Origin: Fibrobacter succinogenes
GTDB taxonomy: Bacteria > Fibrobacterota > Fibrobacteria > Fibrobacterales > Fibrobacteraceae
Direction: 5' to 3'
DNA: 35,236 nt
Assembly: GCF_902779965.1 (NCBI RefSeq)
Contig: NZ_CACZDK010000037.1
Span: forward strand, 1 to 35,236
The position numbers and the translations under genes were made by a program. Positions 11,552 through 24,754 of this stretch are shown one piece after another. Below the pieces are notes generated by a model. That model was not told the origin of the DNA, searched no databases, and worked only from the letters and a program-made list of their open reading frames with translations. Each line of letters begins with the position of its first letter. The first letter of the stretch is position 1.

Positions 11552-11606
11552 GTTACAAGAAAATTAGAAAGATTTACCCCAAAGTGAGCCGAAAGCGAAC
11601 GACCCC

Positions 11607-11648
11607 ATACCCCATAGCCCAAGGCCTACTGTCTACTGCCTACTAATT
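11607..11648. repeat. Right-type heptad array joining ATACCCC and ACTnCCT forms
   Basis: Six 7-mers in one phase: ATACCCC, ATAGCCC, AAGGCCT, ACTGTCT, ACTGCCT, ACTAATT. The array matters because it joins the two heptad spellings found elsewhere (ATACCyC and ACTnnCy) without a phase break, indicating they belong to one family. Confidence 0.8.
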
Positions 11649-17666: not shown

Positions 17667-19172
17667 ATGGCAATGCAAGATATGAATGACCAGGTGCAGG
17701 CTCGCTTGGCTAAGCTCGACAAGTTCAAGGAAATGGGTGTAGAGGCTTATCCTCACAAGTTTAACAGGACCCACGATTCCAAGGTTTTGAAGGAAAACAA
17801 GGAAGCCTTGATGGTGACGAAGGAACCGGTGGCATTTGCTGGCCGCGTGGTTCGTTTCAATCGCAAGGGCAAGATGTGCTTTATGCACTTGAAGGATCGT
17901 TATGGTCGCTTGCAGGTTGTCGTTGCCCGTGACGAGGTGGGCGAAGAAAACTACGAAATCGTGAAGATGACCGACCTCGGTGACTTCATTGGCGTGAACG
18001 GTACGATGTTCGAAACGCAGAGTGGTGAATACTCTGTGCGTGCCGAAAAGGTCACGATGCTTTCGAAGGCTGTGCGCCCGCTCCCGGTCGCTAAGGAAAA
18101 GATTGACGAAAACGGCAACAAGGTCGTGTTCAACGAATTTGCCGACGTCGATACTCGTTACCGCCAGCGTTACATCGACATGGCCCTGAACGACGACGTG
18201 AAGGAAGTCTTCATCAAGCGTTCCAAGATCATGCAGGCTATCCGCGAATACCTCATCGAAAAGGGATTCATCGAAGTCGAAACCCCGACGCTCCAGCCGA
18301 TTTACGGTGGTGCAAACGCCCGTCCGTTCACCACGCACCACAACGCTTGCGACATGACACTTTACTTGCGCGTTGCTCCGGAACTTTACCTCAAACGCTG
18401 CATCGTGGGCGGCATGGAAAAGGTTTTCGAATTCTCCAAGAACTTCCGCAACGAAGGCATGGACCGCACCCATAGCCCGGAATTCACCGGCCTCGAATTC
18501 TACGAAGCTTATGCCGACTACAACGACATGATGGTTCACTTCGAAAACATTTATGAACGCGCTTGCATTGCTGCAAATGGCACCACCAAGATTGAATATC
18601 AGGGCAAGGAAATCGACTTTAAGGCTCCGTGGCCGCGCTACAGCATGATCGAAGCTATCGAAAAGTTCGGCGGCCTCAAGGTGAACGAAATGAGCGATGA
18701 CGAAATCAAGGCCAAGATGGAAGAGCTGGGCGGTCACCTCGATGGCGAATTCTCTCGCGGTCGTGGCATTCTCGAACTCTTCGAATTGACTGTTGAAGAC
18801 AAGCTTATCCAGCCGACATTCATCAAGGACATGCCCACCGAAAGCACTCCGCTCTGCAAGAAGCACCGCACTATCGAAGGCCTTATCGAACAGTTCGAAC
18901 CGTATGCAAACGGCTGGGAACTCGGTAACGCTTACACCGAACTTAACGACCCGATCCGTCAGCGCGAACTTTTGGAAGACCAGGTCCGCCGTGGCCGCGG
19001 TGGTGAAGGTGAAACGCATCCGATGGATGAAAACTTCATGCATGCCATCGAATCTGGCTTGCCGCCGACGGGCGGCGTGGGCTTCGGCATCGACCGCATG
19101 GTCATGCTCCTCACGAACCAGCAGACCATTCGCGACGTGCAACTGTTCCCGCTCATGAAACCGGAAACGTAA
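17667..19172 (+). CDS. lysS: Lysyl-tRNA synthetase, class II
   Basis: It charges tRNA-Lys in the cytoplasm. The 501 residues fit bacterial LysS. An N-terminal OB-fold anticodon-binding domain (about 55-140, AFAGRVVRFNRKGKMCFMHL) precedes the class II core: motif 1 near 195-209 (IEVETPTLQP), motif 2 near 260-277 (FRNEGMDRTHSPEFTGLE) and motif 3 near the C-terminus (GVGFGIDRMVMLLT). The GGANARPFTTHHN region for lysine and ATP binding is intact. A GAGG site supports the start at 17667; the in-frame ATGs two and five codons later are less well placed. An 8-bp hairpin overlaps the stop codon. Confidence 0.98.
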   Translation: MAMQDMNDQVQARLAKLDKFKEMGVEAYPHKFNRTHDSKVLKENKEALMVTKEPVAFAGRVVRFNRKGKMCFMHLKDRYGRLQVVVARDEVGEENYEIVKMTDLGDFIGVNGTMFETQSGEYSVRAEKVTMLSKAVRPLPVAKEKIDENGNKVVFNEFADVDTRYRQRYIDMALNDDVKEVFIKRSKIMQAIREYLIEKGFIEVETPTLQPIYGGANARPFTTHHNACDMTLYLRVAPELYLKRCIVGGMEKVFEFSKNFRNEGMDRTHSPEFTGLEFYEAYADYNDMMVHFENIYERACIAANGTTKIEYQGKEIDFKAPWPRYSMIEAIEKFGGLKVNEMSDDEIKAKMEELGGHLDGEFSRGRGILELFELTVEDKLIQPTFIKDMPTESTPLCKKHRTIEGLIEQFEPYANGWELGNAYTELNDPIRQRELLEDQVRRGRGGEGETHPMDENFMHAIESGLPPTGGVGFGIDRMVMLLTNQQTIRDVQLFPLMKPET

Positions 19173-19186
19173 GGCGGAGCCTTACG
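19168..19186 (+). other. Perfect hairpin overlapping the lysS stop codon
   Basis: CGTAAGGC and GCCTTACG form an 8-bp stem around GGA, and the TAA stop lies inside the left arm. There is no T-tract after it; heptad repeats start four bases later. It may be a terminator remnant cut off by repeat insertion, or a 3'-end stabiliser. Confidence 0.6.
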
Positions 19187-19189
19187 GCT

Positions 19190-19641
19190 AGTAAACAGTG
19201 GTTAGTGGTTAGTAAACAGGAATGCATAAAGGAATGCAATGGCTCAAAGCTATAAAGATTTGGTAGTCTGGCAAAAAGCGATTGATCTGACCGTTGCGGT
19301 TTATCAATTGACGAAACAGTTTCCTAAAGAGGAATTGTTTGGACTAGTATCCCAAATGCGGCGAGCTTCTGTTTCTATAGCCAGTAATATTGCAGAAGGT
19401 GAAGGACGCAAGTCTAAAAAAGAGTTTGCTCATTTTTTAGGCATTTCCCTTGGATCAAAGGCTGAGTTAGAAACTCAATTGCTTTTGTGTGAGCGTGTTG
19501 GTTTAGCTAGTTCATCTGCAGTTTCTGAAATAAGAGATTCGTTGGATGAAATCGGAAAGATGCTTGCCATCTTAAAAATGCGACAAGACTCTCGTATTGT
19601 GATAAAACATCCCAACCACTAACCACCAACCACTAACCACT
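19190..19641. mobile_element. Putative element: four-helix-bundle gene between inverted heptad arrays (element D)
   Basis: The left arm at 19190-19217 is AGTAAAC, AGTGGTT, AGTGGTT, AGTAAAC. The right arm at 19614-19641 is AACCACT, AACCACC, AACCACT, AACCACT. AGTGGTT is the exact reverse complement of AACCACT, so the arms are terminal inverted repeats built of 7-mers. The only gene inside is the four-helix-bundle gene, and its last three codons and stop are encoded by the right arm. A near-identical left arm (AGTGGCT, AGTAAAC repeated, then AGG) without a gene occurs at 21744-21774. Mobility is inferred from this structure; no transposase is present. Confidence 0.6.
19239..19622 (+). CDS. Four-helix-bundle protein of the 23S rRNA intervening-sequence (S23/IVP, TIGR02436) family
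   Basis: 127 residues matching the family along its length: YKDLVVWQKAIDLTVAVY, then FPKEELFGLVSQMRRASVSI, ASNIAEGEGR, EFAHFLGISLGSKAELETQL. Members lie within 23S rRNA intervening sequences in Leptospira and Coxiella, are scattered as single genes in many genomes, and share their fold with the Avd protein of diversity-generating retroelements, a basic pentamer that binds nucleic acid. The biochemical role of the free-standing members is unknown. An AAGGA site lies five bases before the ATG. Its C-terminal PNH and stop codon are written by the first heptads of the right repeat arm. It sits between lysS and the Lol permease gene, unrelated in function to either. Confidence 0.9.
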   Translation: MAQSYKDLVVWQKAIDLTVAVYQLTKQFPKEELFGLVSQMRRASVSIASNIAEGEGRKSKKEFAHFLGISLGSKAELETQLLLCERVGLASSSAVSEIRDSLDEIGKMLAILKMRQDSRIVIKHPNH

Positions 19642-19663
19642 AAAATCTCGTCTTTCGTCTAAA

Positions 19664-20911
19664 ATGCAAAAACTCGAACTTCTCATCGCTTGGCGTTACT
19701 TGGGGGCTCAACGTAAGAGTCTCTTTGTTTCGCTTATTGGTATTTTCAGTATGCTCGGTGTTTCCATTGGCGTGTTTGCGTTGGTGGTGGCGCTTGCGGC
19801 GGTCAACGGTTTCGAAGAAGAGGTCACGGCCCAGATGATTGGGAAGGACGCTCACTTTGAACTGATGGCGTACAATGGCAATCCGATTGGTCCGTACGAT
19901 AGCCTCACGCAGGAAGTGCAAAAGCGCGTGCCTGATGTAGTCGCTTCGTCGCCGTTTATCATTTACAAGGTGGGCATCAGCTCCAAGAAGGTGAACGATG
20001 GCATTGTCATTTATGGCATTGATGATAAAACTGCCAAAGGCGTGACGGACATCCACAAGTATATCAAGTGGGGAAAGTACTCCGTTGATAGCCTCGAAGA
20101 CATGGGCGGTAAGCTCCGTCCGGGAATTATTCTCGGTACTGGCCTTGCGGCGCGTTTGCGCGTTGTCGTTGGTGACAAGCTTGTATTGCAGACGTTCCAG
20201 AGTCCGGACGAGGCGATGTCTGCGGGCGGCCCGAAGATGATGATGTGCGTGGTGAGCGGCATTTTTGAAACAGGCACTTACGAGTACGATGGCAACCTTG
20301 CGTATGTCGGCATTTCGGATTTGCAGAAGTTGCTCGGCATGGGAAACACCGTGACCGGCATCCAGTTCCGCATCAAGGATCATTGGAAAGCGGGCGAGGC
20401 GGTCGATAGCATGGCTACGTGGCTGTCTTATCCGTACTACGGGATGGATTGGAAGTCCAAGAACATCACGCTGCTCAAGTGGATGAATTACGAAAAGTTC
20501 ATTGTGGCGGCGGTGATTTGTTTGATTATCTTGGTCGCTGCATTCAACATCATCAGCTCCCTCATTATGGTGGTTATCGACAAAACGAAGGAAATCGGTA
20601 TCTTGCGCAGCATGGGCTTTAGCAAGGCGGGCGTGATGCGCGTGTTCATGCTGATGGGAAGTTTCATTGGCGTGGGCGGAACCGTTGTGGGTGGGACGAT
20701 TGGTCTTGTGCTTTGCAAGTTGCAAGAGGCTTACCACTTTATCAAGCTTCCGGGCGATGTTTACGTGATTCCATATTTCCCGATTTCTGTGCATGCGATT
20801 GATGTGATTTTGATTTTTGTCATTGGTATTGTACTTTGCGTGTCGGCAACGCTTTTGCCCGCATGGAAGGCTAGCCGCTTGGATCCCGTAGGAGCGATTA
20901 GACATGAATAA
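19664..20911 (+). CDS. Lipoprotein-releasing ABC transporter permease (LolC/LolE/LolF type)
   Basis: The 415-residue inner-membrane permease has the MacB/FtsX layout: one helix near 21-47, a large periplasmic domain to about 280, then three helices near 280-300, 322-345 and 380-402. The conserved coupling segment ISSLIMVVIDKTKEIGILRSMG is intact, and the C-terminus ends in the usual ARLDP-like ASRLDPVGAIRHE. With LolD it should extract outer-membrane lipoproteins from the inner membrane and pass them to LolA. Only one permease gene is present here, so a homodimer (LolF-like) or a second permease elsewhere is possible. No Shine-Dalgarno sequence precedes the ATG; the right arm of element D ends 22 bases upstream. 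lolD follows, after a 158-base repeat-filled gap. Confidence 0.93.
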   Translation: MQKLELLIAWRYLGAQRKSLFVSLIGIFSMLGVSIGVFALVVALAAVNGFEEEVTAQMIGKDAHFELMAYNGNPIGPYDSLTQEVQKRVPDVVASSPFIIYKVGISSKKVNDGIVIYGIDDKTAKGVTDIHKYIKWGKYSVDSLEDMGGKLRPGIILGTGLAARLRVVVGDKLVLQTFQSPDEAMSAGGPKMMMCVVSGIFETGTYEYDGNLAYVGISDLQKLLGMGNTVTGIQFRIKDHWKAGEAVDSMATWLSYPYYGMDWKSKNITLLKWMNYEKFIVAAVICLIILVAAFNIISSLIMVVIDKTKEIGILRSMGFSKAGVMRVFMLMGSFIGVGGTVVGGTIGLVLCKLQEAYHFIKLPGDVYVIPYFPISVHAIDVILIFVIGIVLCVSATLLPAWKASRLDPVGAIRHE

Positions 20912-20917
20912 TTTTTT

Positions 20918-21073
20918 AGTAGACGGTAGACAGTAGGAAGTAGACGGTTTTGCTATGTTCTATGCTGTTTTGTCATTAATAATTAGACCATTTTATGTCA
21001 AAAGGATTTTTAATATTTTGTTTTTTATTTTAAGCATCACTTCCTACTTCCTACTTCCTACTTCCTACTATGT
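20918..21073. repeat. Inverted heptad-array pair between permease gene and lolD (element E)
   Basis: The left arm at 20918-20952, starting seven bases after the permease stop, reads AGTAGAC, GGTAGAC, AGTAGGA, AGTAGAC, GGTTTTG. The right arm at 21039-21073 is four exact ACTTCCT units followed by ACTATGT, so the lolD start codon ATG (21070-21072) lies inside the fifth heptad. The left arm read on the other strand matches the right arm of element A at 1297-1327. The centre (20953-21038) is AT-rich with no gene and no strong hairpin; a lolD promoter could lie there. Confidence 0.85.
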
Positions 21074-21743: not shown

Positions 21744-21870
21744 AGTGGCTAGTAAACAGTGGCTAGTAAACAGGATTAGTTAGGCGGCTACGCCGCGATT
21801 ATAAAAAACTTCCTACTTCCTACTGCCTACATCCTACTAATCACTAACTACTAACCACTAATCACTATAG
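21744..21870. repeat. Inverted heptad-array pair with central GC hairpin (element F)
   Basis: The left arm at 21744-21771 begins three bases after the lolD stop: AGTGGCT, AGTAAAC, AGTGGCT, AGTAAAC, then AGG. A hairpin GCGGC-TAC-GCCGC lies at 21784-21796. The right arm at 21808-21870 is nine in-phase 7-mers, each beginning AC: for example ACTTCCT, ACTGCCT, ACATCCT, ACTAATC, ACTAACC. It contains both the TTCCTAC spelling of element E and the ACTAACC spelling of element D. It looks like a gene-less version of element D. Confidence 0.85.
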
Positions 21871-24462: not shown

Positions 24463-24672
24463 AGCTATGGGCACGGAGCTAAAGCTCCTTTGACGCTTCC
24501 AGCGTCCGCGGCTGCACTCGGTCATAGAAAATGCAAGCATTTTCTGCGACACTCGTTTTGCACGCTATTGAGCACGCTTCGCTTTGGGCTATGAGGTCGC
24601 CTTGTTTTGCAAGGCTTTGGGCATTTCTTATTACAATTGCCCATACCTCAAAGGGGCGCAAGCCCCGAGCTC
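24463..24672. repeat. Cluster of stem-loops downstream of clpC
   Basis: No gene is seen, but stems follow each other: GGAGCT with AGCTCC (24475-24488), GACGCT with AGCGTC (24492-24506), GAAAATGC with GCATTTTC (24527-24544), CCTTG with CAAGG (24600-24614), TGGGCA with TGCCCA (24618-24643), and GGGGC with GCCCC around a GCAA tetraloop (24653-24666). None has a proper T-tract. The stretch 24511-24560 resembles 17486-17590. GGGCTATGAGGTCG at 24587-24600 is a left-type partner of the ATACCTC heptads that follow. Confidence 0.7.
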
Positions 24673-24754
24673 ATACCTCATACCCCACATCCCATACTCC
24701 ATAGCTGAAAAGCGTCTTTTTCGACGTTCTAAGCTCTAAGTTCTAGGTTCTAAA
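24673..24754. repeat. Two heptad arrays upstream of adk (ATACCyC and TTCTAAG types)
   Basis: At 24673-24707 five in-phase 7-mers read ATACCTC, ATACCCC, ACATCCC, ATACTCC, ATAGCTG. At 24727-24754 four more read TTCTAAG, CTCTAAG, TTCTAGG, TTCTAAA, ending four bases before the adk promoter box. The TTCTAAG spelling occurs only here in the window. The period is 7 in both arrays although the sequences differ. Confidence 0.8.

Follow-up and report, generated by a model that had tools for sequence, protein, structure and literature searches.

An S23 gene bounded by inverted heptad arrays in Fibrobacter succinogenes: a candidate class of mobile element without its own recombinase

Introduction

The closest known system to the locus described here is the intervening sequence (IVS) of the 23S rRNA. 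In Coxiella and Leptospira, these sequences encode the S23p protein, the Coxiella IVS being 428 nt long; their complementary ends form a stem, the hairpin is cut by RNase III, their distribution is sporadic, and they have been termed selfish or parasitic (PMC4990558). S23 is described as a homopentamer in work cited there. Two other systems are of relevance. RAYT is a Y1 HUH transposase, and the REPs are short palindromes (PMC3116915). Heptameric repeats have been described in Xanthomonas and Nostoc, two Xanthomonas genomes having 70 and 75 pairs in inverted orientation (PMC4692102), and TAACTGA repeats are found in Beggiatoaceae, cyanobacteria, and Bacteroidetes (PMC4679880). In these papers, one author suggested that a repeat-binding protein might be the mobile element, and Rehm et al. 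reported that mobile elements are not generally associated with heptameric repeats (PMC4692102, PMC4679880).

Here, we analyzed a contig of 35,236 nucleotides from Fibrobacter succinogenes, referred to as the window, in which a first-pass annotation had proposed a new mobile element made of a four-helix-bundle gene and terminal heptad arrays. The 23S rRNA motifs tested were absent from all the loci examined, and the window element lies between lysS and lolC, not in an rRNA gene.

Results

An S23 Gene between Inverted Heptad Arms

The window is contig C37 of a 4.09-Mb Fibrobacterota genome (G000), in which profile search found only one TIGR02436 match. This S23/IVP gene is located between the end of lysS at 19172 and the start of lolC at 19664, and the protein scored 138.9 bits against PF05635 (curated cut-off 33.8) and 130 bits against TIGR02436 (cut-off 24). 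The solved structures 2gsc (XCC0516) and 2rld are related to it. The inverted heptad arrays assigned to both sides of the gene were confirmed from the sequence and with TRF (Table 1). The left array had been described as AGTGGTT heptads, and these do match the AACCACT units on the right in inverted orientation, but only two such units are present, with AGTAAAC on either side of them. The sequence, the open reading frames, and the profile matches bore out that S23 is the only gene between the arms and that its 3' end, CCC AAC CAC TAA (P, N, H, and stop), is encoded within the right array. The absence of a transposase from the element was likewise upheld, S23 being the sole ORF inside, and the element thus lacks the transposase that an insertion sequence or DNA transposon has between its inverted repeats.

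Table 1. Coordinates of the features discussed, in window positions.
Feature	Position	Strand	Evidence and remarks
Palindrome TAAGGCGGAGCCTTA across the lysS stop codon, left edge of the insertion	19170..19184	.	Sequence; comparison with relatives' alleles
Left arm, AGTAAAC AGTGGTT AGTGGTT AGTAAAC AG	19190..19219	+	Sequence; TRF 19197-19213; RNA-fold pairing with right arm, z = -4.6
S23 / 23S_rRNA_IVP four-helix-bundle gene, 127 aa	19239..19622	+	PF05635 E 8.7e-41; TIGR02436; dN/dS ~0.06 in its own clade
Right arm, inverted copy of the left heptads, AACCACT AACCACC AACCACT AACCACT	19614..19641	+	Sequence; TRF 19614-19643
AGACGAR-type right-arm remnant just 5' of lolC, TCTCGTC TTTCGTC T	19646..19660	+	Identical sequence terminates complete AGACGAR-type elements at lysS-lolC in relatives; related forms are 27-bp scars there
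Gene-less (MITE-like) element, lolC-lolD	20915..21069	+	Arms AGTAGAC/AGTAGGA 20918-20945 and CTTCCTA 21039-21069; TRF; 0-bp junction in ~26 relatives
Gene-less (MITE-like) element, lolD-clpC	21744..21867	+	Arms AGTGGCT/AGTAAAC 21744-21773 and ACTTCCT/ACTAACC 21808-21867; TRF; fold z = -3.2; 10-30 bp in most relatives

Palindromes analogous to TAAGGCGGAGCCTTA were observed in other filled lysS-lolC alleles and were absent from the empty ones. The remnant next to lolC suggests, by its similarity to elements of relatives, that a previous element once occupied the lysS-lolC site of the window genome. Elsewhere in the window, intergenic heptads of the families ACCCCAT/CTCATAC and GTTCTAA are found at 11602-11644 and 24670-24753, and its GAGGTAT-type heptads match the arms that S23 elements of the RDFHSLEIW clade have in related genomes.

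Inverted Arms Surround S23 Genes in Many Phyla

The window locus alone was weak evidence, because heptad arrays are abundant in this genome. We therefore compared the 200 bp on the left of each S23 gene with the 200 bp on its right and took the highest-scoring inverted match without gaps as the arm score. Three sets were scored: 108 distinct loci from Fibrobacterota, 80 found by contig scan in about 20 phyla, and 30 from Gammaproteobacteria. Shifted, size-matched placements were used as controls. In the 80-locus set, 75% of the loci had an arm score of at least 13, compared with 0.76% of 1440 control placements. The same threshold was reached by 56% of the Fibrobacterota loci and 0.5% of their shifted placements, and a score of at least 10 by 88% and 6%, respectively. 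The gammaproteobacterial set was an independent replication, with 70% of the loci at 13 or above against 0.9% of the controls. Arms were weak or undetected at about 10-25% of the S23 loci. Inverted heptads flanking other family members, as the first-pass annotation had anticipated, were thus found in most of the phyla sampled, and since the pattern is replicated over S23 loci of many phyla, the inverted arms of the window are above chance.

These S23/heptad elements are 440-515 bp long and consist of two inverted arms, with S23 as sole cargo and no recombinase. The period of the arms is almost always 7, occasionally 8 or 9, and the heptads vary from locus to locus yet agree between left and right within one locus. 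In several elements, the right arm is a homogeneous tandem array and the left arm is mixed. Arm pairs spaced 300-600 bp apart enclosed S23 in 26 cases and did not in eight, of which seven, by our count, belong to two loci rich in repeats, L095 and L082. The element reads in the same direction as the upstream gene in 84% of the diverse set and 92% of the Fibrobacterota, versus a background of 64%. An apparent flip of S23 orientation relative to the arms between relatives was discarded as an artefact, as the loci had retained the orientation of their contigs.

Some loci showed further particularities. In Candidatus Chloroploca sp. Khr17 (L095), which is very heptad-rich, AGGTTTC/AGGGGTC arrays recur about every 99 bp around the S23 gene. 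In two Flavobacterium species (L143, L145), the same junction holds an S23 element whose units are 8 bases long, and one of these genomes (G170) has nine S23 genes. The left arms of L035, L045, L050, L182, L195, L196, and L198, and window positions 21780-21795, contain small hairpins among the heptads, e.g., CGCCGCTTCGCGGC, GGCTCTACGAGCC, and GGACCTACGGTCC, which are conserved in position and different in stem sequence.

The Heptad and Its Genome-Wide Dosage Follow the S23 Clade

S23 is patchily present in 100 of 168 Fibrobacterota genomes and is under strong purifying selection, with dN/dS values of 0.06-0.18 across seven clades. Four S23 clades occupy the lysS-lolC site, each with its own heptad: AQSYKD with AGTGGTT, QGYRD with AGTAGGA, FAYRKL with AGACGAR, and RDFHSLEIW with GAGGTAT. 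The FAYRKL clade, with AGACGAR arms, was found at two sites. Among pairs of elements at the same site, 57% shared the heptad when their S23 proteins were at least 60% identical, and none of 242 did so below 60%. On these sequence comparisons, the heptad goes with the S23 clade rather than with the site.

Whole-genome counts of three heptad families were then obtained in 80 genomes, with clades assigned from the loci retrieved, which did not comprise all loci; controls with the reversed pattern were almost all zero. The median AGTGGTT count was 30 in genomes with the AQSYKD clade versus 4.5 in those without it (p 0.0019), and the corresponding medians were 18 versus 0 for AGTAGGA and QGYRD (p 4.6e-07), and 46.5 versus 17 for AGACGAR and FAYRKL (p 0.0026). 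None of the six non-cognate combinations of clade and heptad was significant in these 80 genomes, and the arms of the S23 element itself contribute only a few of the heptads counted. When phylogenetically independent, discordant sister pairs were compared, 13 of 15 differed in the expected direction (p 0.0037, an approximate value because some sister pairs recur between heptad families). For example, G104, with the QGYRD clade, has 34 AGTAGGA and 10 AGTGGTT, and its sister G098, with the AQSYKD clade, has 0 and 33, respectively. The two reversed contrasts were one for FAYRKL (14 in G069, 29 in G103) and one for AQSYKD (71 in G128, 104 in G077).

Gene-Less Elements and Heptad Arrays

Gene-less copies that share their arms with S23 elements occur, and gene-less heptad arrays greatly outnumber the S23 genes. 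In 20 samples of 20 kb each from G000, period-7 arrays had a density of about 11 per 100 kb, and every other period tested gave 0-2 arrays in all 435 kb. A strict test for inverted partners of gene-less arrays returned few pairs, owing to the mixed composition of left arms; a looser test in G000 gave about a 4-8-fold excess over random placements, at low scores. Arms outlast S23, as arrays were still present in genomes without it, such as G136, and the presence of S23 is therefore not a strict predictor of them.

At lolC-lolD, gene-less heptad elements of 85-200 bp provide a stop and a new start codon, splitting one frame into two genes (window 20905-21072; L162-L201). In about 26 genomes where this site is empty, lolC and lolD form a single continuous reading frame, in L192 and L201 even without the lolD ATG.

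The numerical excess of gene-less arrays, together with the presence of a different element type's heptads where the window element ends on the right, would fit arrays that are independent elements, either slippage-prone repeats or MITEs moved otherwise, with S23 as a passenger or using the arrays as its landing sites. We regard this as unlikely, because the heptad goes with the clade and not the site, each clade predicts the abundance of its own heptad family only, and S23 is nearly the sole content of arm pairs 300-600 bp apart.

Candidate Partner Enzymes

A reverse transcriptase was detectable in only 18 of the 80 genus genomes, by our count 15 of the 53 with S23 and three of the 27 without it; with many S23 genomes lacking one, it was rejected as an obligatory partner. 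A Y1_Tnp domain occurred in 27 of the 80, with a distribution independent of S23, and was missing from G000, and the Y1 transposase was also rejected as an obligatory partner. The suggestion in the first-pass annotation that the element is moved either in trans or through some unknown mechanism is consistent with these data: there is no internal transposase, neither enzyme is required, and the clade predicts the abundance of its own heptad.

The related claim of a kinship of S23 with Avd, the accessory protein of diversity-generating retroelements, was only partly supported. The window protein matched the bAvd profile weakly (30.5 bits, E 5.5e-07), below the curated cut-off of 40, and with this score, and with the sole reverse transcriptase of G000 encoded on another contig (C28), it could not be classed as an Avd. 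This weak match and the homogeneous right arms opposed to mixed left arms in several elements would nonetheless be accommodated by a retroelement- or Avd-like mode, in which S23 is the partner of a reverse transcriptase that copies the transcript of the hairpin, slippage producing the homogeneous right arm as a tail. Such a mode is improbable in our judgment, given how few genomes of the genus carry the enzyme and how many with S23 do not.

Filled and Empty Sites

In about half of 30 genus loci, lysS and lolC are separated by just 9 bp, and in the others by 444-494 bp; over all the loci compared, filled junctions measure 444-515 bp. The existence of relatives with an empty site, on which the proposal of mobility depended, was thus verified, and this result and the flanking heptads of other family members both favour mobility. 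In a panel of 41 genomes, filled and empty states were scattered across the lolC tree. The sister species G103 (empty) and G069 (filled) have lolC genes 95.5% identical, and G104 (AGTAGGA arms) and G098 (AGTGGTT arms), whose lolC genes are 93.0% identical, hold different S23 clades at this site. Four closely related genomes (L187-L190) keep a 27-bp scar of CTCGTCT-like heptads there. All the panels were composed of draft genomes, and the nearest filled/empty contrasts were between sister species or related plasmids, none within one strain.

Similar contrasts were observed in other bacteria. In Rhizobium, empty nuoC-nuoD spacers measure 67-81 bp and filled ones 475-497 bp; the latter include three heptad types, and L279 and L289 retain scars of the right arm. 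On cyanobacterial plasmids, one integrase/hypothetical gene junction measures 3 bp in Tolypothrix PCC 7601, Aulosira laxa, Nostoc carneum, and Anabaena cylindrica and is occupied by a full element in Calothrix brevissima NIES-22, and an element found at nrdA-nrdB in Nostoc edaphicum is missing from Calothrix NIES-4105. No target-site duplication was evident in the filled/empty pairs compared, the closest of which had several base differences at the junction. These comparisons show that insertion is clean, arms included, into stop-to-start junctions of operons, that loss can leave arm scars, and that hot-spot sites are shared among elements. In the Rhizobiales (L087, L088, L110, L280-L304), nuoC-nuoD of the complex I operon is a hot spot common to several genera, with several heptad types. 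A possible transposition between two Calothrix plasmids (H1 and H2) that have the same S23 copy was ruled out; their flanks are also 97.5% identical, and this is therefore a regional duplication.

Most copies occupy few sites (25, 14, and 10 loci), the scars show that losses occur, and homologous recombination between species could transfer whole loci. The S23 loci might accordingly be old and vertically inherited, often lost, their patchiness arising from loss and from interspecies recombination in the flanks, with little or no present transposition. This is quite unlikely, since there are empty alleles without a scar (3-9 bp or a fused junction), one site is held by unrelated S23 clades with different heptads and one clade is found at two sites, and the cognate heptad families are amplified across the genome. 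A role of S23 as a regulator of the host or a toxin-like gene, with the arms as a regulatory hairpin for its own expression in operons, can be set aside as very unlikely: the purifying selection, the strong RNA fold, and the orientation shared with the operon fit it, but the empty sites, the gene-less copies, and the dosage link between clade and heptad are left unexplained.

Discussion

We consider it probable that the window element is one copy of a widespread, recombinase-less class of S23/heptad mobile elements, in which S23 recognises the hairpin of its own heptads and brings about its spread, both in cis and in trans; both the recognition and the chemistry are inferred, and there are no binding data. 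In the mechanism that we propose, the arms would base-pair with each other, either in the transcript or as single-stranded DNA, to form a long hairpin; for the window element, the RNA is predicted to fold into a hairpin closed by the arms. S23, as a pentameric four-helix bundle, may recognise the heptads of its own hairpin and promote its re-insertion, acting in cis on the element that encodes it and in trans on copies without the gene, with the DNA chemistry provided by host replication or repair enzymes, none of which has been identified. The hairpin in the mRNA may also be cut by RNase III, as with the 23S rRNA IVS, and intergenic junctions would tolerate the element because the cut could take place there.

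More broadly, we lean, by a narrow balance, toward the S23 proteins defining a class of mobile DNA that lacks its own recombinase, in which each S23 recognises a heptad code private to its hairpin arms and relies on host enzymes to spread both the S23 gene and a genome-wide gene-less family. The class would extend over most bacterial phyla, be the source of many unexplained heptanucleotide repeats, and include the 23S rRNA IVS as a special case. The S23 family, without a function since its discovery in rRNA intervening sequences, would gain a testable role, and the intergenic heptanucleotide repeats left unexplained in several papers a possible origin. The data point to a class of mobile elements that is found in bacteria as different as Fibrobacter, Rhizobium, and Nostoc and for whose movement no recombinase can be recognised, and the pairing of S23 clade and heptad is a specificity code open to testing.

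Our literature search found no paper tying S23 genes to heptad arms, although most subscription journals were outside it. Within this incomplete coverage, no mobile element of the S23/heptad build has been described outside rRNA, a statement that rests on absence.

Among known systems, ordinary MITEs share with these elements the short, gene-less form, the inverted ends, and the intergenic location; however, the S23 arms consist of tandem arrays, different in each family, target-site duplications are not visible, and what the full-length partner encodes is S23 instead of a transposase. The resemblance to RAYT/REPIN systems lies in a small, usually low-copy gene with inverted repeats around it and many intergenic gene-less copies that track the cognate protein. 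In contrast to RAYT, S23 is a four-helix bundle for which no catalytic site is known, its element has heptad arrays as arms, and G000 has no Y1_Tnp. The repeats of Xanthomonas, Nostoc, and Beggiatoaceae are, like ours, intergenic period-7 arrays variable among close relatives, but no carrier gene has been named for them, whereas the S23/heptad element has S23. An S23 element is a candidate source of those heptads; we have no data from those genomes, and no Xanthomonas, the genus with the GGGAATC repeats, was recognisable in our sample.

The likeness to the 23S rRNA IVS goes furthest, with the same protein family, a similar size, complementary ends around the S23 ORF, and a sporadic distribution, and both sit where the continuity of the RNA is dispensable. 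The IVS are known only within rRNA genes, whereas the S23/heptad elements lie between protein genes. In the literature found, the IVS are not described as having heptad arms, gene-less copies, heptads specific to a clade, or amplification across the genome. If the IVS are taken as the parent kind, the S23/heptad element would count as a form of IVS.
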